NCBI RefSeq assembly: GCF_004216565.1
Contig: NZ_SGWV01000007.1
Coordinates: 372,001-436,000 of the forward strand
Origin: Sphaerotilus mobilis
Lineage (GTDB): Bacteria > Pseudomonadota > Gammaproteobacteria > Burkholderiales > Burkholderiaceae_C
Direction: 5' to 3'
Length of the DNA: 64,000 nt
Numbering within the stretch: position 1 is the first letter of the stretch; every line of letters starts with the position of its first letter. This document shows, piece by piece, positions 30,392 through 46,932 of this stretch. The translations under genes and the position numbers were made by a program. The notes beneath the pieces are model-generated. The model was not told the origin of the DNA. It ran no database searches and was given only the letters and a program-made list of their open reading frames with translations.

Positions 30392-30393
<2 letters not shown>

Positions 30394-31187: not shown

Positions 31188-32069
31188 TCAGATCGCCCCT
31201 TGGTGCGGCGTCGTCGAGACGAAGGGCACGCCGAAGAAGGTCAGGAAGGCGAGCACGAAGACCGTGATCAGGCAGAGCGAGAAGCGCACGGGTGACGGCC
31301 GAAAGGTGACGCGGGCGTGCAGCGTGGCGGCCAGTGCGAGCCAGGTCAGGAAGGCCCAGGTCTCCAGCGGGTCCCAGCCCCAGTAGCGGCCCCAGGCGTC
31401 CTGGGCCCAGACGGCGCCGACGATCAGCATGGCGCCCTCGAAGACGAAGGCGAAGGCGGCGTAGCGGTGGGCCAGCGCGTCGCAGCGGCGGTCATCGGGC
31501 AATGACATGCCCAGACGCCGGCCGATCGGCGTGAGCCGCAGCAGCGGCACGGCCGACCAGGCCAGCGCCGTCAGCAGCAGGCCCAGGAACAGCTTGCCGA
31601 CCAGCGTGTGCAGGTAGAGCAGCACGGTCGCGTAGGTGGGCGGCAGGTGGCCGGGGCGGGCATCGGCCATCAGCAGCCAGCCCGCCAGCAGGGCCAGCAC
31701 CGGCAGCACCACCAGCCAGAGCCGGCGCAGCGGCGGCAGGGCCCAGGCCGACACGCCATAGACCAGCGACAGGCTCCAGAGGTTGCTGCTGAGGATCTCG
31801 TGCATGGTCGTGAACGGCCCATGCCCCAGCGTGACCCAGCGCAGGCCGAGCGACACGGTGTGCACGGCCACGGCCAGCGTCGCCAGGCCCAGGCTCCAGC
31901 GCGTCCAGTCCGGCCGCCGCGACCCACCCGCAACCGCCAGGAGCGACCACAGGCCCGGCACGGCCGACAGCGCATACAGCAGCAGCGCCGCATGCAGCCA
32001 GGGCTGGTCGATCAGGCTCGGCGACAGCGGCGCCAAAATGGCTAGAGGGGCCGACAGGTCCGTGTTCAT
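31188..32069 (-). CDS. ccsA: Cytochrome c synthesis protein CcsA/ResC (System II)
   Basis: This 293-residue membrane protein with about eight membrane segments carries the heme-handling signature of the CcsA/CcmC family. The Trp-rich WWD-type motif is WGRYWGWDPLETWAFLTWLALAATLHAR near residues 225-250. Conserved His residues lie in GHGPFTTMHEILSSN and LAHRYAAFAFVFEGA. With CcsB it moves heme across the membrane and ligates it to CXXCH motifs in the periplasm. It is the last gene of the multiheme operon and overlaps ccsB by ATGA at 32066. Its C-terminus (GVPFVSTTPHQGAI) differs from the usual GLHSY-type end. Confidence 0.9.
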   Translation of the reverse strand: MNTDLSAPLAILAPLSPSLIDQPWLHAALLLYALSAVPGLWSLLAVAGGSRRPDWTRWSLGLATLAVAVHTVSLGLRWVTLGHGPFTTMHEILSSNLWSLSLVYGVSAWALPPLRRLWLVVLPVLALLAGWLLMADARPGHLPPTYATVLLYLHTLVGKLFLGLLLTALAWSAVPLLRLTPIGRRLGMSLPDDRRCDALAHRYAAFAFVFEGAMLIVGAVWAQDAWGRYWGWDPLETWAFLTWLALAATLHARVTFRPSPVRFSLCLITVFVLAFLTFFGVPFVSTTPHQGAI

Positions 32070-33142
32070 CGGGCCTCCAGCGCGCCGGCATCAACCGCGC
32101 GGGCCGGGCTGGCGCCACGCGAGGGCGCTGCCGTGAACTGCCGTGCGTAGTGCCAGCCCAGCGCGACGACCGCCAGCATGGCCAGACCCAGCAGCCAGAG
32201 CAGACTGAGGTCGTAGCTGACGCGGTAGCCCATCCAGGTGCGCAGCTCCAGGTAGTCCAGCCGTCCCCCGGGCAGGTCGAGCGAGCCGCCCGGCGCGAGC
32301 GTCAGGCGCTGTTCGACCGCCCCGCCGTTGCCACCGTGGCGGATCACCAGCGTGCGGTCTTCGGGCAGGCGGAAGCGGCCGGCGCGGTCCGGGTCGATCA
32401 GGGACGGGTCGACCGGCAGTTGCAGCCACAGGGCCGGACCGCCGGGTGGCTGCCAGTCCAGCGACTGCTGCAGCGCATGGGCCGGGTAGCTTGGCAGGTG
32501 CAAAGCGCCGATCGCCGCCTCGCCGCCGGCCGGTGTCCAGCGCAGCAGCGGCGCGTAGCCCTTGTTGGGGCTGGTGTAGATGCGGTAGCCGCGCAGCACC
32601 AGTGGGTGGTGGTCGCCGATCACCGCATCCTGCGGCTGGCCGTCGGCATCGGTCCAGTGCACGCGGTTGCGGGTCGGACCGCGCTTGAGGCCGGGCGCGT
32701 AGTCGATCTCGAAGCCGCTGTGCACGAAGCTCAGCTGACCGAGCCGGTCGGGGTGCCAGCGGCCGGCCACGCCGTCCATCAGCACGCCGTCCCAGGGCAC
32801 CCCCTCGGTCAGCTCGAAGCGGCCGTCCAGCGCGGTCATGCGACCCAGACCGCTGGCCAGCACCAGCCCGAGCAGCGCCAGGTGGAAGACCAGCAGCGGC
32901 ACGCGCCGCCGCAGCGACGGGTGGACGACCAGCGCGACCAGCAGGTTCAGCGCCAGGAACAGCAGCGCCACGATCAGGCCGACGCCCAGCCAGTCGCTGC
33001 GGAAACGCCCGATCAGCACGGCCACGCCGAGCAGCGCCATGCCCGCCAGCGCCGTGCGCAGCGAGCCGAAATGGGCCAGCCAGGCCGGCGGCGTGGGTGG
33101 AGACGTGGGCGGGGACGTGGGGCTGGACGATGGCGGGTTCAT
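32066..33142 (-). CDS. ccsB: Cytochrome c synthesis protein CcsB/ResB (System II), short form
   Basis: The 358-residue protein from ATG 33142 overlaps the 11-heme cytochrome stop by ATGA. It has three N-terminal membrane segments (TALAGMALLGVAVLIGRF; WLGVGLIVALLFLALNLLVAL; LLVFHLALLGLVLASGLG), a periplasmic domain of about 200 residues (WDGVLMDGVAGRWHPDRLGQ, HHPLVLRGYRIYTSPNKGYAPLLRW), and a last membrane segment (LSLLWLLGLAMLAVVALGWHY). This is the ResB plan, but well below the 540-700 residues of common forms. The N-terminal tail is a Ser/Pro/Thr 12-bp repeat. Sited behind the cytochromes, it is probably their dedicated maturation partner. Confidence 0.85.
   Translation of the reverse strand: MNPPSSSPTSPPTSPPTPPAWLAHFGSLRTALAGMALLGVAVLIGRFRSDWLGVGLIVALLFLALNLLVALVVHPSLRRRVPLLVFHLALLGLVLASGLGRMTALDGRFELTEGVPWDGVLMDGVAGRWHPDRLGQLSFVHSGFEIDYAPGLKRGPTRNRVHWTDADGQPQDAVIGDHHPLVLRGYRIYTSPNKGYAPLLRWTPAGGEAAIGALHLPSYPAHALQQSLDWQPPGGPALWLQLPVDPSLIDPDRAGRFRLPEDRTLVIRHGGNGGAVEQRLTLAPGGSLDLPGGRLDYLELRTWMGYRVSYDLSLLWLLGLAMLAVVALGWHYARQFTAAPSRGASPARAVDAGALEAR
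33097..33138. repeat. 12-bp in-frame tandem repeat
   Basis: Units of the GACGTGGGCGGG type encode the SPPT repeats at the cytoplasmic N-terminus of CcsB. Confidence 0.8.
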
Positions 33143-35745
33143 GGCGGGTTGCTGCAGACGTCCTTCATCCAGTCCTTGCCGCTCAGTGCGGCGTTGCCAT
33201 TGGTGCCGAAGGTGGTGGCCGACGCCGCCGAGCCGCAGTTGCTGTCGGTCCAGTTGCCGCTGGTGGCAAAGGTGCGGACCTTGAGCTTGGCGTTCAGGTA
33301 GTAGGGCTCCTGGTTGTAGGCCTGGCCGGGCGCGTTCTCGCGCCATTCTTCGTTGCCGGCCCGACCGGCCTCGGGGCCGACGTCGTTGAGGTTGACCAGC
33401 AGGCCCTTGTTCTTCCAGCCGTGTGGCACCGCGACATGGCACCAGTTGCAGCGGATGCGGCCGATCTTCTCGGTGTGGAAGGCGTGCAGGTTGCCCTTGT
33501 CGGTGTTGGAGAAGCCGGTCTGCCCGGCGCCGGCACCGGCATAGGTGGACTCGTTGTGGCACTTGAAGCACAGCGCATTGGCCGCGCCGCCGCTGCCGAC
33601 GTTGCTGTTCCAGACGCCCTTGAGCAAGAAGGCGTTGGACGAGCCGTGTGGCCCCCAGGCCGAGCCGTCCTCGCCGCCGTTGGGCACGACGGTGGTGGGT
33701 GCCGTGCTGCTGCCGTGGCAGTCGCTGCAGTACATGGTCTGGCTGCCGATGGCATTGCCCCACGGCGCGCGGAAGGCCGCCGCGTTGGCGCCGCTGCGGC
33801 CGGTGCCGTCCATCACCGGATGCCAGGAGCGGTGGTTGTTGGTGGCGAAGTTGGCACCCGCGCCGGAGTTGGCCGAGGTGGTGTCGCCCTTGTGCGTGAG
33901 CGGCGCCTGGAACTCGCGCGCCTGGTTGGTGTAGACCGTCAGGTTGTTGGTGCCCGGCGGCGTGCCGCCCGGATGGCCCAGCGCCGGCCGGCTGCCGAGC
34001 GGGTGGGCGTTGTTGTCCGGGTAGGCGTGGTCCGAGTGGCACTTCAGGCAGACCTGGTACTCGCGGGTCACATAGGGCGCGGTGACGGCGGTGTCCACGC
34101 TGTTGCCCGGGTCGCCGCGCTTGACGGTGTAGCCGCTGGGCAGTTGCTGGAAGGAGGTCGAGCCATAGACCGGTTCGACGCCAAAGGTGCCGCGCAGCGC
34201 GCCCGAGGCGAGGTTGGTGTGGGTGTAGCCGGGTGCCTCGTCGTGGCGGTGGGTGGCGGCCGCATCGGGCGGGCCGGCCAGGCCGCCGGCACCGCCGGTG
34301 AACAGGCGCGCCTTGATCAGGCGATGCGGGTTGTGGCAGTCGGTGCACTCGGCGTGGCGACGGGCCAGCCGGGCGCGCGACTCGATGAAGTCGGCGCCGC
34401 AGCGGTTGGCCGGGCCGGTGCAGTCCACGCCCGGGTCGATGAAGCTGCCGCCGATGTCGTGGACCTCCTCGCCCGCGTTGCCCTGGTCGGCGCTGGTGAT
34501 GGGCATGCGGATGGGCGCGCTGAAATCGGTCTCGATGTCGGGCACCTGCAGGCCGTTGTTCAGCACCGAGCGGGCGGTGCTGGTGTGGCACTGGAAGCAG
34601 GTCTGTTCCTGGGCCGGGTTGCCGCCTTGGCGGGCGGCCAGCAGGTTGGCGGCCGGACGCGGCGCGTCGGTGCCTTCGCGGGTCAGCCGGCGCGCGCCGG
34701 GCACCGTGTGGGTGTCGTGGCAGTTCAGACAGCCGGCCTTCCAGACCGGCAAGGCCAGCGGGAACTCGCGCAGCGTGGCCGCCGCGTCGCGGTAGGTCTC
34801 GTCGGCGACATCCGGCCGGGCGTGGGCCGAATAGGCCCAGCTGCCCGAGGCCAGGTTCTTGTCGTGGCAGCCCAGGCAGACCATGTCGGTGGCCGGGTTG
34901 TGCGCTGCCGACGGTGCGGCCTCCTGGAAGCGCTGGCCACGCAGGAATTTCTGGTTGCCGCGCGCGCTGTCGAGCTCGCGGATGTGCGGGTCGTGGCAGG
35001 TCGCGCACTGCACCTGGCCGGCGCCGTTGACGCCGGTGGGCTGCAGCGGCAGTTGCGGCTTGTAGCCCGGTGCGCGCACGCCCACCACGCTGCCGCTGCC
35101 GCCGGGCCAGCGCTGCTGGGCGTCGACGCCGCGCAGCTCGCCGTCGCGCTGGGCCAGCGCGCTGTTGAAGGTCAGCGAGATCGGGTGGTCGTTGCGCAGG
35201 TCGGTGCCGAGGTTGCGGGTGAAGCCGCTGGCGGTGCCCTCGCCCACCGGCATGGTGCCGCCCGGGCCGGTGCCCACCATCGGGATCGAGGCCCCCGCCA
35301 GGCCGTTGAGCACGTTGACGTTGCCCAGCGCCAGCGTGCCGTCGTGGCAGGACAGGCAGAGCTTGCTGCTGCCACCGGGCAGGCCGCTGAAGCCGTCGAC
35401 GATGGCCTGGGCGTCGAGCGACTCGGACGCATAGGGCGTGTAGGTCGAGCCGGCCGGCACGCGCCGGTTCCACAGCGGCGAGCGCAGCGCCGCGCCGCCG
35501 TCGTCGGTCTGGCTGGCGCCGTGCGGGGTGTGGCAGAAGACGCAGACCTGGTCGGTGCCGCCGGAGCCCGCATGGGCCGCGCCGGGCCCGTCGACCGACA
35601 GGTTGTGGCGCGTGCCCCGCACGTCCGAGACCCGTTGCGCACGGGGCGCGTCGACGCTCGCGACGGCCAGCAGCAGCGCCACGGCGGCACTGGCCAGCAG
35701 CAGCACGGCACGGCGGTTCGGCAAGACGGCGGCGAGCAGGGTCAC
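33139..35745 (-). CDS. Eleven-heme cytochrome c
   Basis: The gene starts with GTG 35745, which overlaps the stop of the NHL lipoprotein gene (GTGA). The long upstream frame is not used. The 868-residue protein has a signal or anchor (RRAVLLLASAAVALLLAVASV) and eleven CXXCH sites: CVFCH, CLSCH, CATCH, CLGCH, CLNCH, CFQCH, CTDCH, CLKCH, CSDCH, CFKCH, CNWCH. The first part is a doubled-CXXCH module (RHNLSVDGPG, then CVFCHTPHGA, then CLSCHDGT) shared with the tetraheme cytochrome at 46 kb. Many extra His residues (HRHDEAPGYTH, NNHRSWHPV) can serve as second axial ligands. Two lone Cys near the end could form a disulfide. It is probably the long electron wire of the cluster; side of the outer membrane unknown. 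Confidence 0.92.
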   Translation of the reverse strand: MTLLAAVLPNRRAVLLLASAAVALLLAVASVDAPRAQRVSDVRGTRHNLSVDGPGAAHAGSGGTDQVCVFCHTPHGASQTDDGGAALRSPLWNRRVPAGSTYTPYASESLDAQAIVDGFSGLPGGSSKLCLSCHDGTLALGNVNVLNGLAGASIPMVGTGPGGTMPVGEGTASGFTRNLGTDLRNDHPISLTFNSALAQRDGELRGVDAQQRWPGGSGSVVGVRAPGYKPQLPLQPTGVNGAGQVQCATCHDPHIRELDSARGNQKFLRGQRFQEAAPSAAHNPATDMVCLGCHDKNLASGSWAYSAHARPDVADETYRDAAATLREFPLALPVWKAGCLNCHDTHTVPGARRLTREGTDAPRPAANLLAARQGGNPAQEQTCFQCHTSTARSVLNNGLQVPDIETDFSAPIRMPITSADQGNAGEEVHDIGGSFIDPGVDCTGPANRCGADFIESRARLARRHAECTDCHNPHRLIKARLFTGGAGGLAGPPDAAATHRHDEAPGYTHTNLASGALRGTFGVEPVYGSTSFQQLPSGYTVKRGDPGNSVDTAVTAPYVTREYQVCLKCHSDHAYPDNNAHPLGSRPALGHPGGTPPGTNNLTVYTNQAREFQAPLTHKGDTTSANSGAGANFATNNHRSWHPVMDGTGRSGANAAAFRAPWGNAIGSQTMYCSDCHGSSTAPTTVVPNGGEDGSAWGPHGSSNAFLLKGVWNSNVGSGGAANALCFKCHNESTYAGAGAGQTGFSNTDKGNLHAFHTEKIGRIRCNWCHVAVPHGWKNKGLLVNLNDVGPEAGRAGNEEWRENAPGQAYNQEPYYLNAKLKVRTFATSGNWTDSNCGSAASATTFGTNGNAALSGKDWMKDVCSNPP

Positions 35746-36905
35746 GGCAGGCGCACGCGCGGGGGCGCGCTCACTTCTGGGGTCGGACGCAGGCGCGCCA
35801 ACCGGGCGTTGAACATGTCGGCGACCAGCACATCGCCGTCGGGCGCCACCCACACGCCCGAGGGCAGCAGGAAGCGGGCCACCGGCGGCATGGCCGCCGA
35901 GGCCGGGCCGATCGGCAGCAGCAGCTGGCCGTCGGCGTCGTAGACCAGCACGGTGTCGTGGTAGGACTCGACCACATGCACGCGCCCGGCCCGGTCGACC
36001 GCCACGCCCTTGGGCCGCACCAGCTGGCCGAGCACGACGCCGCGCGAGCCGATCTGCCGCAGCGGTTGGCCATCGGCCGCGCGCAGCACCTGTACGCGGG
36101 CGTTGAGGCTGTCGGTGACATAGAGCAGGCCGTCCGCCAGCGCCAAGTGGGTCGGCGCGTTGTAGCGGCCAGGCGCACTGCCCGGCCCGCCGAGCGTCGC
36201 TTCGAGCTGGCCAGCCGCATCGAAGACCTTGATGTCGTGGGCGCGGGTGTCGGCGACATAGAGCCGGCCGCTCGCCCGATCGCGCGCCAGGCCGGTCGGG
36301 CGCTGCAGCACGCCACGGCCGATCTGGCCACGCGGCTCGCCCTGCGGGTCGAGCCGGACGACCCAGCCGAGTTCGGCATCGGCGACATCCAGGCCGCCGT
36401 CCGGCGTCGGCGCCAGGCCCACCGGCGAGACCCAGTTCAGACCCGGGCCGGCGCGCTCCCACAGCGCCAGCGTGCCGCCGGCCAGGTCGAAGACAAAAAT
36501 CGCGCGCCGCCCGGCATCGCTGACGAAGACCCGGCCACCGCCCGGCGCGCCGTCGCCGCTGACGGCGCTCGGGCGCTGCAGTTGCAGCGGCGCCTCGTCG
36601 GCGCCGTCCAGCCCGGCGATCCAGCGACCCACGCGCCGCCACACGCTGGCGCTGCCGGCCGACTCAGGCCGGTGCAGCTCGGGCTCGCCGGTCAGGTGGC
36701 CGGCCCAGGCGTAACGGGGCGGCTCGGGTGCCGCCGGCCAGACCAGCGCGGGCGCGGCGGGGCCGGCATCCTCGGTGCCCAGCGCCCCGTCCATGGCGTA
36801 GCGCCAGGTGCCACGCACGGGCTCGCTGGCGCAACCGGCCAGGCCGATCCAGACGCTGGCTGCCAGCATGGCCAGCAGGCGCGGAAGGCGTCGCCACAAG
36901 CTCAT
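35742..36905 (-). CDS. NHL-repeat lipoprotein 1 of 3
   Basis: This 387-residue lipoprotein (LAGC lipobox at about residue 22-25) has a Pro/Ala-rich linker of about 80 residues, then a six-bladed NHL propeller. Blades are visible as LQRPSAVSGDG...VFVSDAGRRAIFVFDL, LDVADAELGWVVRLD, LQRPTGLARDRASGRLYVADTRAHDIKVFD, LYVTDSLNARVQVLR, VRPKGVAVDRAGRVHVVESYHDTVLVYD and LLPSGVWVAPDGDVLVADMFNARLARL. NHL lipoproteins often accompany multiheme clusters and may scaffold cytochromes at a membrane face. It overlaps both neighbours by 4 bp. Confidence 0.88.
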   Translation of the reverse strand: MSLWRRLPRLLAMLAASVWIGLAGCASEPVRGTWRYAMDGALGTEDAGPAAPALVWPAAPEPPRYAWAGHLTGEPELHRPESAGSASVWRRVGRWIAGLDGADEAPLQLQRPSAVSGDGAPGGGRVFVSDAGRRAIFVFDLAGGTLALWERAGPGLNWVSPVGLAPTPDGGLDVADAELGWVVRLDPQGEPRGQIGRGVLQRPTGLARDRASGRLYVADTRAHDIKVFDAAGQLEATLGGPGSAPGRYNAPTHLALADGLLYVTDSLNARVQVLRAADGQPLRQIGSRGVVLGQLVRPKGVAVDRAGRVHVVESYHDTVLVYDADGQLLLPIGPASAAMPPVARFLLPSGVWVAPDGDVLVADMFNARLARLRPTPEVSAPPRVRLP

Positions 36906-37978
36906 TGCGTGAGCCCCTCACCGACGCGGCCTTCGCGCACCCGGAACAGCTGCACCACGCCACCCACCCGGTCGGCCACCGCCAGCCAGCCGTCGTCGAG
37001 CGCGAGGGCGGCCGGCTGCATCACCCGCAGGTCGGCGGGCAACAGGCGCAGCGCGGGCTGGCCGGGCACGAAGAACACGACCGAGCCGTCCTGCCCATCG
37101 AGCACCGCGACCCGGCCACGCACATCGGCGGCCAGCGCCACCGGCTGTCGCAGCTCGCCCGCGCCGATCAGGCCCAGCGGGCGCCCATCGCCGAGGGCGA
37201 ACACGCGGATGCGCGCCTGCCGGCGGTCGAGCAGGTAGACGCGGTCGAGGCTGGCGGCGATGGCGTCAGCGCCCCCTTCGCCGGTTGTGCCGAGCGGCTC
37301 GGCCAGCGTCGCACCGCGCCACTCGGCCCAGCGACCCGATGCGTCGTCGGCCACCACGACGCGGTTGGCGACACCCGCCAGCGCGAAGCCGACCGGCGAG
37401 GTCAGGTCCGCCAATGACACGCGCCGGATCAACTGCCCGCCCGGCGTGAGCTGGAGCAGCTCCCGGCTCGGCCCGTCGAGCGCCCACAGGCTGGCGTCCG
37501 AACCCAGCGCCAGCACCGTGCGCGGCGAGATGGCCAGGCCGGCGATCGGCGGCAGCACGGTCCAGGCCGGCGCACTGGCCACCGCCGAGGCCTGGGGGAT
37601 GCGGATCAGGCGGCCCAGCCCGGCATCAGCCACCACCAGTTCACCGGCGCGCAAGGCCAGCGCCACCGGGCCGACCAGCCGGATCGGCGCCCCGCCCATC
37701 GGCGCCGGCAGGCCGGGCAGGCCCGGCAGGCCCGGCAATGTGGGCACCCCGAAGGCGCCACCGGGCAAGGCCAGCTGGCCGCTGCCGATGGTGCGCCAGT
37801 GCTGCAGCACGGCAGGCCCGGGCGGGCGCGGCGGCGGCGCATCGTCGGGCCGGGTCGGCGGGCCGGAACAGCCGGTCAACACGGGGCCCGCCCCGATCGC
37901 GGCGAGCGCCGCCAGGCCCGCGATCCAGCGGCGGCGCGTCGTGTCGCCGGTCATGCGAGGCAAGTCTTCAGAGGCCAT
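36902..37978 (-). CDS. NHL-like propeller lipoprotein 2 of 3
   Basis: From ATG 37978 (GGGGAG six bases upstream, TGATG overlap with the c7 stop; ATG 37984 is the alternative) the product has 358 residues. It has a signal with twin Arg and lipobox (TTRRRWIAGLAALAAIGAGPVLTGC), a Pro-rich linker with an LPG repeat, then a divergent propeller: GPVALALRAGELVVADAGLGRLIRI, ISPRTVLALGSDASLWALD, LTSPVGFALAGVANRVVVADDASGRW, LDRVYLLDRRQARIRVF, LRQPVALAADVRGRVAVLDGQDGSVVFF, MQPAALALDDGWLAVADRVGGVVQLF. Blades are less regular than in the upstream-coded homologues. The role is inferred from context only. Confidence 0.82.
   Translation of the reverse strand: MASEDLPRMTGDTTRRRWIAGLAALAAIGAGPVLTGCSGPPTRPDDAPPPRPPGPAVLQHWRTIGSGQLALPGGAFGVPTLPGLPGLPGLPAPMGGAPIRLVGPVALALRAGELVVADAGLGRLIRIPQASAVASAPAWTVLPPIAGLAISPRTVLALGSDASLWALDGPSRELLQLTPGGQLIRRVSLADLTSPVGFALAGVANRVVVADDASGRWAEWRGATLAEPLGTTGEGGADAIAASLDRVYLLDRRQARIRVFALGDGRPLGLIGAGELRQPVALAADVRGRVAVLDGQDGSVVFFVPGQPALRLLPADLRVMQPAALALDDGWLAVADRVGGVVQLFRVREGRVGEGLTQ
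37707..37742. repeat. 9-bp in-frame tandem repeat
   Basis: Four units of GGCAGGCCS (the last degraded) encode LPGLPGLPGLP, a collagen-like stretch in the linker of NHL lipoprotein 2. Confidence 0.85.
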
Positions 37979-38382
37979 CACCATCTCCCCGGCCCTGACG
38001 TCTGTGCGCCGCCCTGGATGCCGCTGGACAGGCCCTTCAACCCCGAGTGGCAGAGGTCGCAGCGGTCGGGGCCCCAGGCGACCTGGCCGTTGTGGCAAGC
38101 GCCGCAGAACTTGCCGTCGACGATGTCGTTCATGCGCACGGCGTTGGCGCCGGCCCGCATCTCGAAGCCGAGTTCCTGGTGACAGACCTTGCAGCGGAAT
38201 CGGATGCGGTGGAACCAGTGCGGAAAGACCACCGGCCGCACGCCCTCGGCGTCCGAACGCTGGTTGATGACGACGTCGCCGTATTCGGCCCGCGCCGCTG
38301 ACGGCAGCACGGCCAGCCACAACGCCATCAGCCCGAGCAACAGGGGCCAGGTGAGTGGCAGCCATCCGGACATGCGACTCAT
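37978..38382 (-). CDS. Triheme cytochrome c7 protein (A')
   Basis: This 134-residue exported protein has a signal peptide (LLLGLMALWLAVLPSAARA) and then a c7-type triheme domain of about 90 residues. Three heme sites are seen: CKVCH, CGACH, CDLCH. The preceding FPHWFHRIRFRCKVCH supplies the extra His ligands typical of bis-His c7 proteins. It is the paralogue of the protein at 42184-42657 (shared AEYGDVVIN, VRPVVFPHWFHR, RFRCKVCH, FCGACHNGQVAW). ATG 38382 overlaps the next cytochrome's stop by ATGA. It is a likely periplasmic electron carrier. Confidence 0.9.
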   Translation of the reverse strand: MSRMSGWLPLTWPLLLGLMALWLAVLPSAARAEYGDVVINQRSDAEGVRPVVFPHWFHRIRFRCKVCHQELGFEMRAGANAVRMNDIVDGKFCGACHNGQVAWGPDRCDLCHSGLKGLSSGIQGGAQTSGPGRW

Positions 38383-39017
38383 GGCCGGCCCTCCACCACC
38401 GGCCGCACCGGGCCGACATCGGGCCGGCCGCGCAAGGCGCTGTTGGGCACGCTGTGGCAGCGGTTGCATTCGGTCAGCGGGAAGGACACCGCGCCGTGGC
38501 AGACGCCGCACTGCTCGCCGTCGAGGATGCGCTGCATGCTGTAGCGGTTGGCGCCGGCCTGCTGCTTGAACAGGCCGTCGTGGCAGTTGGCGCAGTCCAG
38601 CCAGAGCGTGTGCTGGCGGTGCGGGAACAGCACCGCCGGCATCGAGCCGTACTTGCTGATGATGATGTCCTGGTCGCGCACCCGCACCGGCGTGGCCGCG
38701 CTCAGGTTGGCACGCGGCTGGATCACGCCCTGGTCGAGCGCCTGGACCCAGCGCACCTGGTTGCCGGCCGTGTCACGCGGCAAGGTCGACAGCGCCTCGG
38801 CCGGTTGCTGCAGCAGCCCGAGGGCCGGGTTGGCCGGGTCATGCAGGCCGTCGTCGGCCAGCGCCGTCCACGGCGACGCCGGCCGGGGCGCGGACGCCGG
38901 CACCGCCGCCGCCCGGACCGCCGGGGTCTGGGGCTGGACCGGCAGCGGCACGAAGCCCAGACACACGGCCAGGGCGACGGTGCAGGTCAGCCACGTCGGT
39001 GCCATGGCGGGTCTCAT
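38379..39017 (-). CDS. Triheme cytochrome c7 protein (B')
   Basis: The 212-residue exported cytochrome has a signal peptide (TWLTCTVALAVCLGFVPLPVQPQ), a linker, and a conserved pre-domain (DDGLHDPANPALGLLQQP, then WVQALDQG). The c7 domain has heme sites CANCH, CGVCH and CNRCH and ligand His residues in LFPHRQHTLWLDCANCH. It aligns through its whole mature part with the C-terminal two-thirds of the c5-c7 fusion at 40983-42173 (HDPAN, AGNQVRWVQALD, GSMPAVLFPHRQHT), so it is that gene's paralogue without the c5 domain. ATG 39017 overlaps the stop of the helical protein. Confidence 0.9.
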   Translation of the reverse strand: MRPAMAPTWLTCTVALAVCLGFVPLPVQPQTPAVRAAAVPASAPRPASPWTALADDGLHDPANPALGLLQQPAEALSTLPRDTAGNQVRWVQALDQGVIQPRANLSAATPVRVRDQDIIISKYGSMPAVLFPHRQHTLWLDCANCHDGLFKQQAGANRYSMQRILDGEQCGVCHGAVSFPLTECNRCHSVPNSALRGRPDVGPVRPVVEGRP

Positions 39018-40069: not shown

Positions 40070-40986
40070 GGCGAGATCCCGGTGGGCGCGGGTGTGGCCA
40101 ACCCGGCGGTGGACAGGGCGCGCTGGATCTGCAGCACGGCAAGGCGCAGGTCGGCCAGGGCCTGGTCAAGGTCGCCGGCCTGGTGGCGCTGCTGGGCCTG
40201 ACCCAGCAGCGCCGATGCGGCGGCGCCATAGCGTTCGACCAGCGCCAGCGCGGCCGGCGCCGGCTTGAGGTCGCGCACGGCCAGTGGCACCAGATCGGCC
40301 AGCGCGTGGTACTGGGTCAGCGCCAGCGTCCAGGCTTCCGCCGGGGTGCCGGCGCGCTGGGTGTAGTCGAGCGTGGCGTTCTGCACGCCCCGGTAGTAGC
40401 CGGCCAGCAGCAGCTTCTCGGCCCGCGACAGCGTGGCGATGGCCTCCTCGTGGCGGCCTTGCGAGCCTTGCTGGCGGGCGCCCGCCAGCAGGTCGGCGGC
40501 GCTGGCCAGGTCGGCGCTGTCCTGGGCCGACAGATCGGCCTGGCGACCACGCCAGGCGTCCACCAGCCGCTCGGTGCTGGCCTGCAGCTCGGCATGGCGA
40601 CGCTGCAACTGGGCCTGTCGCGCGGCATGGTCGGGCACCAGGCGGCGGGCGCTGCCGAGGTGCTTGAGGGCGTCGTCGATGGCCTTGCGGGCGGCCGCCA
40701 GCTCGCCGCGGGCGAGCAGTTCGGCGGCCTGGGCGTGGTGGGCCCGGCCTTCCTCCAGGTGGGCGCGGGCCTCGGCATGGCCGCTGGCGACGATGCGCTG
40801 GGCGGTGGGCGAATCGGCGATCAGCATCGCCGCCAGGCGCAGCTTCTGCTCCAGCTGGGCACGCTGCGCGGCGTCTTCCTGGGCCTGAGCCGGCAACACG
40901 CCAGAGGCGGCCAGCAGGCAGGCCGCCGCCATGCGCTGCCAGCCCCAGCCGCTGCGGGGTCGATGCGGTCGCGCCGTCTGCCTCAA
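40066..40986 (-). CDS. Helical periplasmic protein of unknown function (C)
   Basis: I propose TTG 40986 as start (306 residues). It overlaps the previous stop as TTGA and gives a normal signal peptide with an Arg/His-rich head. ATG 40932 would leave only AAACLLAASGVLPAQAQ. The mature part is helical: LRLAAMLIADSPTAQRIVASG, HAQAAELLARGELAAARKAIDDALKHLGSARRLVPD, DLASAADLLAGARQQGSQGRHEEAIATLSRAEKLLLAGYYRG. It matches its neighbour C' in the first 90 mature residues (ML/LIE-type start, ALDAGE/ARGELA turn, AR-LVPD/RLARPE). No heme, Cys or known domain seen. Function unknown. Confidence 0.75.
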   Translation of the reverse strand: MRQTARPHRPRSGWGWQRMAAACLLAASGVLPAQAQEDAAQRAQLEQKLRLAAMLIADSPTAQRIVASGHAEARAHLEEGRAHHAQAAELLARGELAAARKAIDDALKHLGSARRLVPDHAARQAQLQRRHAELQASTERLVDAWRGRQADLSAQDSADLASAADLLAGARQQGSQGRHEEAIATLSRAEKLLLAGYYRGVQNATLDYTQRAGTPAEAWTLALTQYHALADLVPLAVRDLKPAPAALALVERYGAAASALLGQAQQRHQAGDLDQALADLRLAVLQIQRALSTAGLATPAPTGISP

Positions 40987-42173
40987 GGCTTGCGCTCCAC
41001 GGCGGCAGCGCTGGCGGCGGCCGGCTCGGTCTTCTTCTTGGAGTGGCAGAGCCGGCATTCGGACACCGGGAAGGCCACCTTGCCGTGGCAGACGCCGCAC
41101 TTCTGGCCCAGCAGGATGGCGGCCATGCTGATCTGGTTGGCGCCCTTCTGCGGCACGAAGATGGCCGGGTGGCAGTTCGAGCAGTCCAGCCATTCGGTGT
41201 GCTGCTTGTGTGGGTAGACCACGTCGGGCATCGAGCCCTTGACCTCGCGCACGATGTTCAGGTCCATCACGACCGCGTTGGCGGTCGGGTCGAGCCGGTC
41301 CCAGCGCGGCGCGATGGTCTTGCCGTCCAGCGCCTTGACCCAGTCGACGTGGTTGCCGGCCGGGCTCTTGGGCAAGTCGGCGAAGGCGGTGGCCGGCGGC
41401 TGCAGCTGCAGCGTCATGTCGTTGGCCGGGTCGTGGATGCCGGAGTCGACCGCCGGCCGGTTGTGCCGAGCCGCTGGCTTGAGCAGGCGGTTGAAGGCAT
41501 TGACCTCGCGCGATGGCGTCGGCGTGGGCACCACCGCCCGGGTGGCCGGCGGCGCGGCGGGCGGCTCGGTGCTGGCCGGCGCGGCAGCCGTGGTCACGGC
41601 CGTTGCGGCGGCGGGTGCCGCTGCAGGCGCTGCGGTCGTTGCTGCGGCCGCAACAGCCGTCGTTGCCGCGCCAGGTGCCACGGCAGCTGCAGCGGTCGCC
41701 GCCGCCGCGCTCATCTTGGCGACCGGGCTTGCCGCTGGCTTGGCCGCTGCAGCCGCTGCAGCCGCTGCAGCCGCTGTGGCCGGCTTGGCCGCCGCCGCAT
41801 CGGCCGGCTGGGTGCCGCCGCTCATCATGTAGCCGATGACGGCCTTGAGCTGCTCGGCCGACAGGTCGGGTCGGCCGCCCTTCGGTGGCATGCCCTTGGC
41901 GGTGCCGGCGGTGGCGCTCTTGACCAGGGCGTCGATGCCGGCCTTGGCGCGGGGCCCCCAGTCGGCGGCGTTGCCGAACTTGGGCGCGTTGAGCACACCG
42001 CTGGCGTGGCAGCCGGCGCAGATGCCGTCGTAGACCTGCTTGGCGAAGGCGCGATCGGGCGCCTGGGCGAGCGCCGCGCCGGACCACAGGGTCAGGGCGG
42101 CCGCAGCGGCGACGGCCCAGCGGAGACGGCCCGTGTGCGGGGCGCGGGAGGCGGGAGTGAGGTGGGCTTGCAT
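40983..42173 (-). CDS. Fusion cytochrome: c5-like monoheme domain, poly-Ala linker, triheme c7 domain (B)
   Basis: This 396-residue protein has four hemes. After a signal peptide (AVAAAAALTLWSGAALAQ) comes a cytochrome c5-like domain (about 35-120): AKQVYDGICAGCHASGVLNAPKFGN, axial Met in GTAKGMPPKGG, helix LKAVIGYMMSGG. Next is a linker of about 100 residues that is mostly Ala with Pro/Thr, partly made of 9-bp repeats. Then come the conserved HDPAN pre-domain and a c7 domain with CSNCH, CGVCH and CRLCH. The c5 domain could take electrons at low affinity and pass them to the c7 hemes through the flexible tether. It overlaps gene C and follows c7 gene A by 10 bp. Confidence 0.92.
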   Translation of the reverse strand: MQAHLTPASRAPHTGRLRWAVAAAAALTLWSGAALAQAPDRAFAKQVYDGICAGCHASGVLNAPKFGNAADWGPRAKAGIDALVKSATAGTAKGMPPKGGRPDLSAEQLKAVIGYMMSGGTQPADAAAAKPATAAAAAAAAAAAKPAASPVAKMSAAAATAAAAVAPGAATTAVAAAATTAAPAAAPAAATAVTTAAAPASTEPPAAPPATRAVVPTPTPSREVNAFNRLLKPAARHNRPAVDSGIHDPANDMTLQLQPPATAFADLPKSPAGNHVDWVKALDGKTIAPRWDRLDPTANAVVMDLNIVREVKGSMPDVVYPHKQHTEWLDCSNCHPAIFVPQKGANQISMAAILLGQKCGVCHGKVAFPVSECRLCHSKKKTEPAAASAAAVERKP

Positions 42174-42183
42174 CGCGGTCGAC

Positions 42184-42657
42184 CTAGCGTTTGTTGGCCG
42201 GAGCGGCCGGGGCGGCGGGTGCCGCAGGCAGCGCGGCCGATGCCGCCGACGACGGCAGGTGCACGCCGAAGCGCTGCAGAGTGCTCTCGTGCACCTGGGT
42301 CGGCGTGCCGGGCTTGCCGGCATGGCAGAGGTTGCAGTTCTCGGCCGACCAGGCCACCTCGCCGTTGTGGCAGGCGCCGCAGTACTGGCCGTCGATGATC
42401 TTGAGCATGTTGATCTGGTTGCCGCCCGCCTTGAACTGGAAGCCCAGGTCGGCATGGCAGACCTTGCAGCGAAAGCGCACCCGGTGGAACCAGTGCGGAA
42501 ACACCACCGGGCGCATGCCGGCCGCGTCCGAGTAGTTGTTGATGACGATGTCGCCGTACTCGGCCCGGGCCGGGCCGGCCGCGCCCAGCCACAGCGTCAG
42601 CAGGGCCAGCGCGAGCCATCGCAGCAGGCGCAAGGGGCTGGGTCGGTGTGGTGTCAA
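42184..42657 (-). CDS. Triheme cytochrome c7 protein (A)
   Basis: This 157-residue exported cytochrome has a signal peptide (LLRWLALALLTLWLGAAGPARA). The mature domain opens with EYGDIVINNYSDAAG and FPHWFHRVRFRCKVCH, followed by CGACH and CNLCH, making three hemes with His side ligands. It has a longer Ala/Pro tail (AAPAAPAAPANKR) than its paralogue at 37978-38382. c7 proteins ferry electrons in the periplasm in metal-reducing bacteria. Separated by 82 bp from the barrel gene, it may start a sub-transcript. Confidence 0.9.
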   Translation of the reverse strand: MTPHRPSPLRLLRWLALALLTLWLGAAGPARAEYGDIVINNYSDAAGMRPVVFPHWFHRVRFRCKVCHADLGFQFKAGGNQINMLKIIDGQYCGACHNGEVAWSAENCNLCHAGKPGTPTQVHESTLQRFGVHLPSSAASAALPAAPAAPAAPANKR

Positions 42658-42700
42658 GGAAGCTCTCCTGCGGTTCGGGTGGGGTGGGTGATCAAGGTTC

Positions 42701-42733
42701 GGGTGACGTTCGGGTGACGTTCGTTCGACGTTC
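42701..42733. repeat. Three 11-bp direct repeats in the barrel/c7 gap
   Basis: GGGTGACGTTC occurs twice back to back (42701-42711, 42712-42722), followed by the related GTTCGACGTTC (42723-42733). The period is one helical turn. This is the only gap over 31 bp inside the cytochrome operon, so it could be a protein-binding array or simple slippage. Confidence 0.5.
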
Positions 42734-42739
42734 GTGCGG

Positions 42740-44887
42740 TCAGAACCGCCGCAGCGCCCGCGCGCCGATCAGGCCGACCGGCCGGCCGTCGACCCGCGCG
42801 GCTCGTGCCAGCAGGCGCAGTTCGAGCTGGCCGATGCTGTGGTCCAGCCGGTTCTCGACCGAGGCGGTGACACGTTCATGCAGCGCGTCGATGTCGCCGG
42901 TCGAGCGGCTCTCGAAGGCCTGGCTGTTGACGGTCAGCGTGGCCGTGTAGCGCAGCCGGGGCACGTCGGCCACGCGCAGGTGCTCATAGCTCAGCGAGCC
43001 GCTGTAGAAGGGGAGCCAGCCCGGTCCGCCCAGCCGCGTCTGGCCGGTGAAGACATCGAGCTGCTGGGTGTCGCTGCGGCTGCCCTGGGCGGTCAGGTTG
43101 CCGTTCCAGCTGCTGTGGCGGCTCAGGCCGGTGCGGCGGCTGAGCTGCAGGTTGACGAGCTGGAAGCGTCCGCCTGTCGATCCGAGGCCCGGCGCGCCAC
43201 CGCCCAGCGTGCGCGAGTCGCTGTAGGACGCGCTGGCATAGCCGTAGGACGCCGTGCTGCCCTCGCCGCTCAGGCCGCCCTGCCACGCCAGCCCGAGCGT
43301 GTGGGCCAGCGCCCGCACGGTGCCGGCGACCTGGCTGTCGTGCAGTGCGCCGAGGCTCTGGCCCAGCTGCAGCGACAGGCTGCCGCCGTCGTCGCCCAGC
43401 CAGTCGCGGCCCAGGCCGTGGTTGAGCTGCAGGCCCTGGGTCAGGCGTCGACCGGCCGGTGCCGCCCCCGAGGGCGTGGCGACCACGCCGCTGCTGCGGC
43501 TGGCACCCAGGCTGGCCGACACGCCCGGCGTGTAGCGCCAGGCCGCGCCGCCTTGGGCGTTGCCCAGCAACACGCCGACCGGCGCCCAGGCCAGCGTCAG
43601 GTTGCCGGTCTGCACGGTGCTTGCCGCCGTCGCGGTCGACGGGGTCAACGCCGCCGAACCGCCGGCCTCGGTCTCGATGCGGGTGCCCGACCAGCCGCCC
43701 GACAGGCGCCAGGCTGGCGACAGCTCGCGCGACGCACCGAGCGCGACATTGGCCGCCCGCAGGCCGGTGCGGCTGCGGCTGGACAGGCCGGCATTGAGGC
43801 TGTCGGTGCCGGTGTCGGCCTCGATCAGCCGGACGCTGCCGGTCAGCTGCAGCGGCGAGCGCAGCGGCTCGCCGTCGCTGCGGTCGGACGCCGGGCGCCA
43901 ACTGGCGAAGCTGGCGATCTGGCGGATATCCGTCTCGCTGTCCTGCCGGTTGCCCAGCAGGCCGGCGTGCAGGCGCACCTCGTTCCAGGTCGCCAGCGTG
44001 TCGAGCTGGACATCGCCAACCGGCTGCCAGGCATGGCGGGCGCTGAGGTTGGCGTAGCGGCTGCGGTTCTCGCTGTCGCTGCGCTGGTTGCGGCTGAGCT
44101 GGCCGCTCCATTCGAAGCGGTGGTCATCGCGCTGCTGCAGCGCCTGGGCACGCAGGCTGTCGACCCGGTCGGCGACGCCCGCTAGCGTGCCGGTGAGCGA
44201 CTCCAGCGTGCTGTGTTCAAGGTTGATCGCATAGCTGTCGGTGCCGTTGAGCTGCCGCCAGCTCTGGTCGACGATGAGCCGGCGCAGCCGGTAGTCGCTG
44301 CCGACATGGTCGCCACGCACCCGGCTGTCGCTGACGTCCGCGCGCAGCTCGAACGGGAAGCGGCTCTGCGGGAAGACCGACACCGCCACATGGCCGGTGC
44401 CGCCTCGGCTGGTCGACGTCGTCGAGCTGTCCACCTGGCGCGAGACGTCGCGTGCCACCAGCGCGCCGAAGCCGCCCCGCAGCTGCACAAACCAAGGCTC
44501 CCACAGGTGGGTGGACCACTGCAGTTCGGCATAGCTCAGGCCCTGGGTGTTGCGGCGGCCGTCTTCCAGGCGCTGGCGACGCAGGTCGAGCGAGACGCTG
44601 CCGCCCAGCCGCACCGGCGCGAAGCCCCAGACGATGCCGTTGCCGGCCGGCGCCACGCCCGCAGGGTCGGCCACGCCGGGTGAGCCGTTCTCCAGCGCGT
44701 CGGCGGCGGCCGCGTCGACGGCACCGATCACCGGCCCCGGCGCGAACGCCGCTGCCTGCACGCCGCCGGCACGCAGCATCAGCAGCGACAGCAGGGTGAC
44801 CGCCGCCGCGATCGGCAAGCGGCGCACGGCACCGCGCCCGCGCCGTCCGGGCACGCTGCAGGATGAGCCCCGGTGCATCGCTGCCAT
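42740..44887 (-). CDS. Large outer-membrane beta-barrel (putative porin of the cytochrome conduit)
   Basis: From ATG 44887 (or 44878) the protein has about 715 residues. After a signal segment (AVTLLSLLMLRAGGVQA) the sequence is dominated by alternating beta-strands with aromatic girdles (SYAELQWSTHLWEPWFVQLRGG; RYTATLTVNSQAF) and Gly/Ser/Asp loops, and it ends in Phe (ALRRF), the classic outer-membrane insertion signal. No plug or TonB box is seen. The size suits a 22-28-strand barrel like MtrB/PioB-type sheaths, but the N-terminal CXXC of MtrB is missing and I see no clear family signature. Placed between the chaperone and the c7 genes, it is the best candidate for the pore that lets a multiheme cytochrome reach the surface. 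Confidence 0.8.
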   Translation of the reverse strand: MAAMHRGSSCSVPGRRGRGAVRRLPIAAAVTLLSLLMLRAGGVQAAAFAPGPVIGAVDAAAADALENGSPGVADPAGVAPAGNGIVWGFAPVRLGGSVSLDLRRQRLEDGRRNTQGLSYAELQWSTHLWEPWFVQLRGGFGALVARDVSRQVDSSTTSTSRGGTGHVAVSVFPQSRFPFELRADVSDSRVRGDHVGSDYRLRRLIVDQSWRQLNGTDSYAINLEHSTLESLTGTLAGVADRVDSLRAQALQQRDDHRFEWSGQLSRNQRSDSENRSRYANLSARHAWQPVGDVQLDTLATWNEVRLHAGLLGNRQDSETDIRQIASFASWRPASDRSDGEPLRSPLQLTGSVRLIEADTGTDSLNAGLSSRSRTGLRAANVALGASRELSPAWRLSGGWSGTRIETEAGGSAALTPSTATAASTVQTGNLTLAWAPVGVLLGNAQGGAAWRYTPGVSASLGASRSSGVVATPSGAAPAGRRLTQGLQLNHGLGRDWLGDDGGSLSLQLGQSLGALHDSQVAGTVRALAHTLGLAWQGGLSGEGSTASYGYASASYSDSRTLGGGAPGLGSTGGRFQLVNLQLSRRTGLSRHSSWNGNLTAQGSRSDTQQLDVFTGQTRLGGPGWLPFYSGSLSYEHLRVADVPRLRYTATLTVNSQAFESRSTGDIDALHERVTASVENRLDHSIGQLELRLLARAARVDGRPVGLIGARALRRF

Positions 44888-44918
44888 CCGTGACACCGGG
44901 TTGCGGCCGGACCGGCGC

Positions 44919-45989
44919 TCAGCCGGCCCGCGCCTTCGTGTCCTGGGCCGGCAACGGCGCATAGACGCTTTCGTCGATCTGGACCGGCGTGGCCGCCCGC
45001 AGGCGCTCGATCAGCGCGAGCCAGTCGGCCTCGCCCTGGTCACGCAGCCACAGGTCGACCGCCCGGCCACGCACCTCGGCGAGCGGCCGCTCGCGCGCCG
45101 CGCGGCGATCGTCCAGGCGCAGCAGCGCCACGCCTTCGAGCACCTGCACCGGCGCCGACAGCTGGCCCGGCTGCAGGCCGTCGACGACGCCGTGCAGCGC
45201 CTCGGGCAGCATGCCCCGGTGTATGTAGTCCAGCCGGCCACCGGCGGCGGCGGAGGCATCGGCCGACTGCAGCCGCGCGGTCTCGGCAAAGTCGGCACCG
45301 GCCTGCAGGCGGGTGTGCAGGGTGCGGGCCTCGGCATGGGCGGCATCCCAGACGGCCTGCTTCGAACTGGGTTCGACCTTCAGCAAGATCACGCTCAGGC
45401 GCACCTGCTCGGGCTCGGTGAAGCGCTCGCGGTGGCGGGCATGCCAGGCCGCAAGCGTGGCCTCGTCGGGCGCGTCCGGGCGGCGCACCTCGGCCTGCAG
45501 GCGGCCGATCAGCGAGTCGCCCTCGAACTGGGTCCGCCACGCCGACAGCATGCGCTCGCGGTGGCTGGCATCCAGGCCGGCGGCCTGGCTCAGTCGCTGA
45601 GCCTGCGGGGCAAGCTGGGCCTCGACCCGGGCGGCATCGGGCGTCAGGCCGCGTCGACGGGCTTCGGCCAGCAGCAGCACCCGGTCGACCAGGGCCTGGC
45701 CGATCTCGCGCTGGAAGGCCGCCACCTCGGCCTCGGGCGGCTGGGCGTGGTAGTACTTCTGGCGCATCGCCACGCCCAGCGCGCGGCGGTAGTCGCCGCG
45801 GGTCAGCACCTGCTCGCCGATGCGGGCGAAGGGCAAGCCATCGGCGGCGGCGGCGGCGGTGGCGGTGGCAGCGGCGGAGGGTGCCGGCAAGGCCTGCGCG
45901 CCTGCCAGCAGCGGCAGACACAGCAGGACGGCTTGCAGGCCGGCCCGCAGCGTCCGCCTGGCCCGCAGGCCGCTGGGTCGTCGTGTCAT
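44919..45989 (-). CDS. Parvulin-type periplasmic peptidyl-prolyl isomerase
   Basis: The 356-residue protein has a signal peptide (LRAGLQAVLLCLPLLAGAQA), a SurA-like N-terminal helical chaperone part (LPFARIGEQVLTRGDYRRALGVAMRQKYY), and a rotamase domain near 200-300: EPEQVRLSVILLKV, ADFAETARLQSADASAAAGGRLDYIHRGMLPEALH, LSAPVQVLEGVALLRLDDRR. Such foldases help outer-membrane barrels and exported multiheme proteins fold. Directly upstream of the barrel gene (31-bp gap), it may be its dedicated chaperone. It starts 13 bp after the tetraheme gene. Confidence 0.88.
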   Translation of the reverse strand: MTRRPSGLRARRTLRAGLQAVLLCLPLLAGAQALPAPSAAATATAAAAADGLPFARIGEQVLTRGDYRRALGVAMRQKYYHAQPPEAEVAAFQREIGQALVDRVLLLAEARRRGLTPDAARVEAQLAPQAQRLSQAAGLDASHRERMLSAWRTQFEGDSLIGRLQAEVRRPDAPDEATLAAWHARHRERFTEPEQVRLSVILLKVEPSSKQAVWDAAHAEARTLHTRLQAGADFAETARLQSADASAAAGGRLDYIHRGMLPEALHGVVDGLQPGQLSAPVQVLEGVALLRLDDRRAARERPLAEVRGRAVDLWLRDQGEADWLALIERLRAATPVQIDESVYAPLPAQDTKARAG

Positions 45990-46002
45990 GCCGCCAGCCC
46001 CG

Positions 46003-46932
46003 TCACTTCACGTGGCAGGTCGTGCAGACCGCGCTGGAGGCGTTGGAGATGCGCAGGAAGGTCTCGCCCGCGACCTGGCCGGTGCCGGCCGGGCCGCTCT
46101 GGCCGCTGGAGACGTGCGGGTCGTGGCAGCTGGCGCATTCGACCAGCGGGCCCAGGCCGCCGGTGGCGCGCTGGTAGAGCGGCAGGTCGGTGCGCTGCTT
46201 GCCGGCACCGCCGGTGTCGACCCAGAAGACCTGGTTGCCATTGATGGACTGGGTCTGCGGCTGGCGGAAGTCGCCGTCGTTGCAGGTGCCCGAGACCGTG
46301 GTGCCGCTGCCGGTCAGGCCGCCGCCGCAGTACTGGATGCCGATCGGGTGGTCGTTGGACAGGTCGGTGCCCAGCAGGCCGGGGCCGCCGCTGATGCGGC
46401 CGGTGGCGCTGACGCTGCTGCCGGTCCAGGTGTAGGCCCGGCCGTCGACGCCACCGCCGTCGGCCACGAAGCCGCCGGAGCCGGGTGCGTTGATGACGTT
46501 GTCCATCGCCTGCGTGCCGTCGTGGCAGGACAGGCAGGCCATCGAGATGGAGCCGACCGGCGCGACCGTGCCGTCCAGCGAGGGCGTCTGCAGCGTGTCG
46601 TAGGTGGTGTAGGCCCCACCACCGGCCGGCGCACCGCCCGCGCCCAGGCGCTTGTTCCACAGCGGCGCGGGCGCGTTGACGTCCGCGCCGTGCGGGGTGT
46701 GGCAGAACACGCAGACCTCGGCCGTGTCGGACGTGCTGTTGCGACCCGCCAGACCCGGTCCGGAGCCCAGGTTGTGACGGGTGTCGGCGATGCCGGCCGA
46801 CACGCTGTCGGCTTGCATCACCCCGGTGGCCAGCACCAGCAAGGCGCCGACCGCGACGAGCAGGCGACGCCAGGCCGGCACGCTGCCGGCACGATCGTCG
46901 TGAACCTGGGGACGGTTGAGTAGTCTTTGCAT
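46003..46932 (-). CDS. Tetraheme cytochrome c (doubled CXXCH type)
   Basis: First gene of the 14-gene operon. ATG 46932 follows a strong GGAGG (46939-46943) by six bases. The 309-residue product has a signal segment (LLVAVGALLVLATGVMQA) and four heme sites: CVFCH, CLSCH, CASCH and CTTCH at the extreme C-terminus. The first pair forms the doubled-CXXCH module (TRHNLGSGPG, CVFCHTPHGA, CLSCHDGT) found also at the start of the 11-heme protein, so one probably arose from the other or both from a common module. A region with two further Cys (YCGGG, TCNDG) may be disulfide-bonded. It may be the periplasmic or surface partner of the conduit. Confidence 0.9.
   Translation of the reverse strand: MQRLLNRPQVHDDRAGSVPAWRRLLVAVGALLVLATGVMQADSVSAGIADTRHNLGSGPGLAGRNSTSDTAEVCVFCHTPHGADVNAPAPLWNKRLGAGGAPAGGGAYTTYDTLQTPSLDGTVAPVGSISMACLSCHDGTQAMDNVINAPGSGGFVADGGGVDGRAYTWTGSSVSATGRISGGPGLLGTDLSNDHPIGIQYCGGGLTGSGTTVSGTCNDGDFRQPQTQSINGNQVFWVDTGGAGKQRTDLPLYQRATGGLGPLVECASCHDPHVSSGQSGPAGTGQVAGETFLRISNASSAVCTTCHVK

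Follow-up and report, generated by a model that had tools for sequence, protein, structure and literature searches.

A Uet-type cytochrome cluster of Sphaerotilus mobilis whose UetA and UetJ carry sequence homology to the filament-forming cytochrome OmcE

The closest described relative of the locus considered here is the undecaheme electron transfer (Uet) complex, which has been published from Tenderiales and Gallionella and treated as a porin-multiheme complex composed of the tetraheme UetA, the peptidyl-prolyl isomerase (PPIase) UetB, the barrel UetC, the trihemes UetD, UetE and UetG, the NHL proteins UetH and UetI and the undecaheme UetJ (PMC10734462). In Candidatus Tenderia electrophaga, three trihemes (Tel_16515, Tel_16520 and Tel_16530), a TPR gene (Tel_16525) and an undecaheme gene (Tel_16545) stand, by their numbers, in the order described below; on a cathode, expression of the trihemes is among the highest of all its genes, and the undecaheme is unchanged with potential (PMC5371394). 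UetJ with its porin has also been reported in genomes of the Leptothrix/Sphaerotilus group (PMC13386937). A second point of reference is provided by the filament cytochromes OmcS and OmcE, in both of which one His ligand of an interfacial heme comes from the neighbouring subunit (PMC9473688, PMC12954529), and which share no recognisable sequence similarity any longer (PMC9473688). The present analysis concerns 64,000 nucleotides of Sphaerotilus mobilis (RefSeq GCF_004216565.1, contig NZ_SGWV01000007.1, forward-strand positions 372,001 to 436,000; hereafter the window), in which an initial annotation had described a fourteen-gene minus-strand unit at 31188-46932 as a complete porin-cytochrome conduit of a type different from MtrABC. 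Judged by gene content and order, this unit is a cluster of the Uet type, gene for gene, and not a new type, while UetA and the N-terminus of UetJ are, by sequence, homologues of the filament-forming Geobacter cytochrome OmcE.

All fourteen genes were confirmed as a single set of frames favoured by third-position GC (GC3) bias, overlaps and homology. UetA, UetB and UetC lie in a row, followed by the trihemes of the UetD, UetE and UetG kinds together with UetF-like proteins, with c7 matches above cut-off for four of the smaller cytochromes, TPR matches under cut-off and an order as in Tel_16515-16530; the NHL proteins UetH and UetI, the two among the fourteen products that match NHL, and the undecaheme UetJ complete the set. 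Motif counts returned the 28 CXXCH in six cytochromes previously noted (Table 1), and conservation of these cytochromes among relatives shows that the motifs did not arise by chance. The parvulin, the two NHL proteins and the CcsB/CcsA pair of the initial annotation were likewise recovered, through Rotamase, NHL, ResB and Cytochrom_C_asm matches. Long open reading frames that overlap these genes in other frames (such as 32066-35473 and 40066-42087, each outside its true 3' part) were excluded by GC3 and homology. In UetB a match to SurA_N_3 (1.2e-4) falls under its cut-off, as does every NCBIfam match. The second UetF-like protein has best copies in relatives that are 33-69% identical where found, and comparison with PDB sequences gave nothing meaningful for it. 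The unit is also larger than first drawn. Immediately ahead of uetA lies a third NHL lipoprotein gene. Of 75 related places, 62 have it in this position in the orientation of uetA and three in the opposite one, and three of the remaining ten places end at a contig edge no more than three bases from uetA; by this conserved placement it belongs to the Uet unit, so that the fourteen genes stand as annotated while this gene, a regulator pair and a sigma-54-type site fall outside the extent originally given. Similarly, the proposed distinction from MtrABC holds for this electron-transfer set, with the family models under cut-off, but its novelty does not, the type having been published as Uet.

Uet genes are patchily distributed. 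Of 250 genomes of the family, 5 gave UetJ matches at E 1e-20, four of which, that of the source genome included, are nearly full length; the three listed genomes of the same genus gave none. At 1e-40 UetJ was found in 14 of 399 genomes of an order sample and in 24 of 398 of a phylum sample, both counts including the source genome and genome G091. When named species genomes were scanned with UetD, 500 uetD-like stretches were confirmed (one cluster can give two), of which the best 80 were used as named loci. Their host records include Rubrivivax, Piscinibacter, Ideonella, Aromatoleum, Azoarcus, Dechloromonas and Sulfuritalea as well as Motiliproteus, Thalassotalea, Sedimenticola, Ramlibacter and Mn-Betaproteobacteria; the fetched loci include none with a Tenderia title. 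The barrel gene is present in 78 of the 80, the other two ending at a contig edge; UetA, UetB and UetC occur together in 63 and are joined by UetJ in 46. UetJ is not visible in 29 of the 80 stretches, many of which are short or cut, and when the genomes of seven such stretches and of one control were searched it was present in all eight. Clusters lacking barrel and multiheme genes together, which had been named beforehand as an outcome that would speak against a conduit, were thus not found among these loci. One related cluster (L066:3998-9070) carries a tandem uetJ pair and no UetF-type match, and in the locus of a Piscinibacter aquaticus record (L088) the Uet genes look broken in several frames, perhaps through sequencing errors.

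The homology to OmcE emerged from comparison with all PDB sequences. With phmmer, UetA matches OmcE (7tfs) at 2e-18 over residues 28-307 of 309 and entry 9yuq at 4e-24 in two stretches, while the N-terminus of UetJ matches the same entries at 4.4e-26 and 2e-14, or 2e-35 and 3.5e-24 when a profile is used. Neither gave any further PDB match to E 1 (0.01 for the profile), and the triheme UetD, taken as a control, matches c7 proteins and not OmcE. No paper on 9yuq was found in the open-licence literature. Since OmcE and OmcS have lost recognisable similarity (PMC9473688), OmcE is closer to UetA than to OmcS. The heme ligands follow the same pattern: all 71 aligned UetA rows keep the four CXXCH motifs and the four distal His (53, 81, 195 and 273), all 70 UetJ rows keep those of the N-terminus (47, 75, 187 and 254), and both sets of distal His align with His of OmcE, so that UetA resembles OmcE in sequence, heme number and ligands alike. 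Proteins labelled A without exactly four CXXCH (15 of 118) and those labelled J without exactly eleven (3 of 72) were left out before these counts, and because two overlapping sources of loci were used, the 70 UetA rows besides the window represent 67 distinct sequences, the 69 UetJ rows 65 and the 28 rows of the paralogue described next 27. A different protein of 579-596 codons, also with 11 CXXCH and an OmcE-like module at its start but not UetJ, occurs at L015:313-2049 and L167:277-2064; the genomes concerned are one of the same family and the Aromatoleum genome from which L094 comes.

In many clusters of the beta type, mostly in records of Rhodocyclales or other betaproteobacteria, a second tetraheme, here termed A2, precedes the third NHL gene. 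Groups were defined by position and heme number and not by the residue in question: of 103 tetrahemes, the 70 whose genes immediately precede uetB were taken as UetA and the 28 encoded immediately ahead of the third NHL gene as A2. A further five remained ungrouped: the His of the CHTPH motif is present in three of them, of which two precede the barrel gene and the third is truncated by a contig end; a fourth lacks it, and the fifth is truncated at its N-terminus. In A2, three of the four distal His (the first, third and fourth) and all four CXXCH His are retained (28/28 each), and the second distal His, that of CHTPH, is lost in all 28; this residue is kept in 71 of 71 UetA and in 36 of 36 UetJ rows, every second UetJ row having been used in this comparison (where the column of the fourth CXXCH His holds His in 33 of 36). 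A tree rooted on OmcE separates the three groups into clades with support of 0.905 (UetA), 0.993 (A2) and 0.992 (UetJ). Only UetA and UetJ were found to carry an OmcE-like module in the source genome, and A2 was not found there. If the CHTPH His bridges subunits, A2 could accept a neighbour but not donate to one and would end a chain, while UetJ could donate and would end the other side.

The large barrel with a terminal Phe that had been annotated is consistent with the structural model. UetC does end in Phe and has no Pfam or NCBIfam family; its AF2 model, with a mean predicted local distance difference test score (pLDDT) of 86.5 and a predicted template modelling score (pTM) of 0.75, is all-beta, with about 28 long strands after a disordered N-terminus and no plug. 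Its start codon is uncertain, with alternatives as far as 44962. A profile of the barrel gave weak partial matches only against PDB sequences, the best at 0.0012.

Placement of promoter-type sites points to a switch in front of uetA. Sites of the sigma-54 type with at most one mismatch occur in 42 of 72 regions upstream of uetA, compared with a mean of 1.3 and a maximum of 3 in 20 rounds of dinucleotide shuffling; given duplicates among the loci and the relatedness of all of them, this count is not a probability. They represent 38 distinct sequences, lying mostly 226-314 bases before the first heme codon; random control windows carry such sites in 6.9% of cases, and the regions before uetB, uetC, uetI and uetJ fall under their controls. 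Over the whole window, matches with at most two mismatches number 30 against 36 expected, so without an excess only the placement before uetA, tested in relatives, counts. The case for a site before the third NHL gene is weaker (Table 1). A sensor kinase and an NtrC-type regulator are encoded beyond ccsA. Kinases of 27-36% identity and similar regulators (nine at 50-59% identity, a tenth at 37%) each occur in 10 of 100 fetched Uet loci, these being of the Aromatoleum/Azoarcus type or from Motiliproteus and Thalassotalea.

Taken together, these observations make it rather probable, in our judgement, that the Uet cluster builds and wires an OmcE-type cytochrome filament, exporting and anchoring it with UetJ as an end piece. 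Heme would be attached in the periplasm with the help of the cluster's own ResB and CcsA, UetB would keep the exported proteins competent, and the plugless barrel UetC would serve as outer-membrane passage or anchor. UetA would polymerise like OmcE, with the His next to heme 1 of one subunit completing the interfacial heme of its neighbour. Having a UetA-like N-terminal module with further hemes behind it, UetJ can be pictured docking on one end of the UetA chain, where it would form the end piece that faces the barrel or the substrate. Within the periplasm, electrons may be ferried by the triheme c7 proteins and by the fusion of monoheme and c7 domains; the NHL lipoproteins and the TPR-like proteins may act as scaffolds, and the NtrC-type regulator may turn the operon on from the sigma-54 promoter before uetA. 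A fuller version, in which a dedicated assembly makes a polar A2-(UetA)n-UetJ wire, with A2 ending the other end in many relatives, UetB and UetC exporting and anchoring it, sigma-54 in control and photosynthesis coupled to it in the host here, is offered more tentatively.

Several points weigh against this picture. No filament is reported for any Uet system in the literature passages covered, and what such filaments do in Geobacter is a matter of dispute (PMC11077965). The structure model of UetJ is poor (mean pLDDT 45.5), and an arrangement of its C-terminal part was not obtained. In a Foldseek search with the UetC model, MtrB ranks ninth with a template modelling score (TM) of 0.35-0.37, below ordinary ligand-gated receptors; as receptors and MtrB are alike at low TM, no specific relative of UetC is claimed. 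The bridging role of the CHTPH His, that of His16 in OmcS, is presumed for OmcE by alignment of the motif, and A2 may alternatively be a tetraheme in which one heme site is left open for catalysis, for which a filament is not needed. A regulator pair beyond ccsA was seen in one of ten loci with at least 1.9 kb there (L053, a weak partial kinase match), so the link to the regulator does not hold throughout. Of 41 other Uet genomes examined, 8 have reaction-centre genes, so that light is not a general partner of Uet.

The direction of electron flow had been left open by the initial annotation, which saw no quinol oxidoreductase; none was recognised among the cluster proteins scanned, and the source genome encodes one NapC/NirT-type protein outside the cluster. 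The same genome holds a RuBisCO large subunit and two neighbouring reaction-centre proteins, from which the host is probably an anoxygenic phototroph of the Rubrivivax kind, and our guess is that electrons are taken up in this host. That the same machine works outward, exporting electrons to respire Fe(III), Mn(IV) or humics, is a serious possibility although not the one we favour: Aromatoleum, Azoarcus and Dechloromonas are among the hosts, and a manganese-reducing Dechloromonas with an undecaheme has been described (PMC13264449), but the RuBisCO and reaction-centre genes of the present host, the high expression of the Tenderia trihemes on a cathode (PMC5371394) and the lack of a recognised quinol dehydrogenase in the cluster argue the other way.

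A conventional porin-cytochrome conduit, in which UetA and UetJ act as single molecules, one in or below the barrel and the other at the surface, appears rather unlikely. The modelled UetC would fall in the size class of MtrB, whose barrel has 26 strands, and Uet has been described in print as a porin-multiheme complex (PMC10734462). However, a conduit of this kind accounts poorly for the homology of UetA to OmcE with all four distal His unbroken, and the loss of exactly one of these in A2 is most simply read as loss of the ligand given to a neighbour, the open catalytic heme mentioned above being the alternative. Another reading, which we regard as improbable, has UetA leaving by a different route such as type II secretion, with UetC serving only UetJ or another substrate. 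Pseudopili of type II secretion have been suggested to export Geobacter nanowire cytochromes (PMC10954620), whereas the conjunction of uetA, uetB and uetC in most named loci, which persists in Motiliproteus and Thalassotalea loci with uetJ elsewhere in the genome, speaks against it. An ordinary porin beside soluble periplasmic carriers, with no electron transfer at the outer membrane, is highly improbable, because even though the barrel has no known family, gene order is conserved across orders despite the patchy presence, and UetA and the UetJ N-terminus are OmcE homologues.

Table 1. Features of the Uet cluster and its flanks (window coordinates; lipoboxes and the signal sequence were recognised by eye)
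Feature	Coordinates	Strand	Evidence
UetA, tetraheme cytochrome, OmcE homologue, signal sequence	46003..46932	-	4 CXXCH; phmmer match to OmcE 7tfs
UetB, parvulin-type PPIase	44919..45989	-	Rotamase 4.1e-15
UetC, predicted large plugless beta-barrel	42740..44827	-	AF2 model; no family
UetD, triheme c7 cytochrome	42184..42657	-	3 CXXCH; Cytochrome_C7 4.3e-15; TIGR04257 6.6e-18 (over cut-off); PDB 3ov0 9e-37
UetE, monoheme class I domain, Ala-rich linker and triheme c7 domain	40983..42173	-	4 CXXCH; Cytochrome_CBB3 1.5e-10; Cytochrome_C7 5.5e-11
UetF-like protein 1, probably helical/TPR-like	40066..40932	-	TPR matches all under cut-off; same place in relatives
UetF-like protein 2, probably helical/TPR-like	39014..40069	-	TPR and YfdX (2e-4), all under cut-off
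UetG-type triheme c7 cytochrome 1	38379..39017	-	3 CXXCH; Cytochrome_C7 9.6e-12
UetG-type triheme c7 cytochrome 2	37978..38382	-	3 CXXCH; Cytochrome_C7 3.6e-15
UetH, NHL-repeat protein, lipobox LTGC	36902..37978	-	NHL 5.4e-6
UetI, NHL-repeat lipoprotein, lipobox LAGC	35742..36905	-	NHL 3.1e-18
UetJ, undecaheme cytochrome, OmcE-homologous N-terminal module (about 20-255)	33139..35745	-	11 CXXCH; phmmer and profile matches to OmcE
ResB-type heme-attachment protein	32066..33142	-	ResB 4.2e-6, over cut-off
CcsA-type heme-attachment protein	31188..32069	-	Cytochrom_C_asm 2.6e-20; TIGR03144 2e-31, under its cut-off
Third NHL-repeat lipoprotein, lipobox LAGC	47270..48424	-	NHL 3.4e-23; start chosen from sequence
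Sigma-54-type -24/-12 site, TGGCAC-N5-GTGCA, one mismatch, 76 bases before uetA start	47008..47023	-	Pattern match
Sigma-54-like site, 14 bases before chosen ATG of third NHL gene	48438..48453	-	13/62 relatives vs 6.5% of control windows
Sigma-54-like site before divergent class I cytochrome genes from 48555, possible regulon member	48499..48514	+	Pattern match in window
Sensor histidine kinase, putatively NtrB-like in role	28732..30426	-	HisKA 6.8e-7, over cut-off; HAMP 3e-5, just under
NtrC-type sigma-54 response regulator	27202..28716	-	Sigma54_activat 4.7e-68; Response_reg 7e-31

Beyond the cluster, the plus strand at 48555-50575 carries a divergent pair of class I cytochrome c genes, one with 2 CXXCH and the other with 3. 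On the minus strand, 24390-27048 encodes two proteins like two-component-regulator propellers that adjoin the regulator pair (the one scanned, at 25696-27048, matches Reg_prop), and 54120-58863 holds genes that, from translation only, resemble those of NAD-dependent formate dehydrogenase subunits.

While the Uet gene set is already known, the relation of UetA to OmcE, the apparent ligand loss in A2, the candidate sigma-54-type switch and the probable phototrophic setting were not found in the open-licence literature, a scope outside which lie the founding Uet paper and the structure papers on OmcE and OmcS. To our knowledge, how cytochrome filaments cross and anchor in the outer membrane is an open question. 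If UetA is a filament subunit, a single compact conserved operon, present in named isolates and outside Geobacter, would supply barrel and chaperone as well as end pieces and switch, and the A2 paralogue would offer a natural test of the subunit-bridging ligand. Phototrophic extracellular electron uptake is known from the Pio and Fox systems, and an inward direction would extend it beyond them.

With PCC3, the cluster shares the character of a putative porin-cytochrome set of iron oxidisers. It differs in its parts, since PCC3 combines two multiheme cytochromes of very many hemes with a five-helix inner-membrane protein and the largest multiheme cytochrome of the cluster has 11 CXXCH, the inner-membrane protein not having been searched for by sequence. 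Elsewhere in the same genome, on contig C1 at about 497431-501752 (L153:9432-13753), two tandem, slightly overlapping minus-strand open reading frames of 813 and 741 codons with 24 CXXCH each look PCC3-like. With MtrCAB, MtoAB and PioAB, the cluster has in common a large, by its model plugless, barrel encoded together with multiheme cytochromes. In contrast to these systems it contains neither MtrA nor MtrC, the family models remaining far under cut-off: the decaheme MtrA/DmsE family (TIGR03508) gives 44.8 bits with UetJ and 23.6 with UetA against a cut-off of 192.2, and the OmcA/MtrC family of surface decahemes (TIGR03507) gives 22.1 with UetA against 209.3 and does not list UetJ.

Comparison with the OmcE filament of Geobacter sulfurreducens (PDB 7tfs) brings out shared sequence, heme motifs and four distal His in UetA and the N-terminus of UetJ. 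UetJ departs from it in having a long C-terminal part, where another seven CXXCH follow the first four, and the likeness of Uet is drawn from sequence where the OmcE filament is known. Closest of all, and likened by gene content and order as far as the published passages go, are the Uet clusters of Candidatus Tenderia electrophaga and Gallionella, which share with the present one the tetraheme, the PPIase, the barrel, the trihemes, a TPR protein, two NHL proteins and the undecaheme. Here, however, there are two TPR-like proteins, four c7 proteins and a UetE with an added monoheme domain, and also a third NHL lipoprotein, ResB/CcsA and the regulator pair, some of which the founding description of Uet may already hold. 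The host also differs, being in this case a betaproteobacterium with reaction-centre genes.

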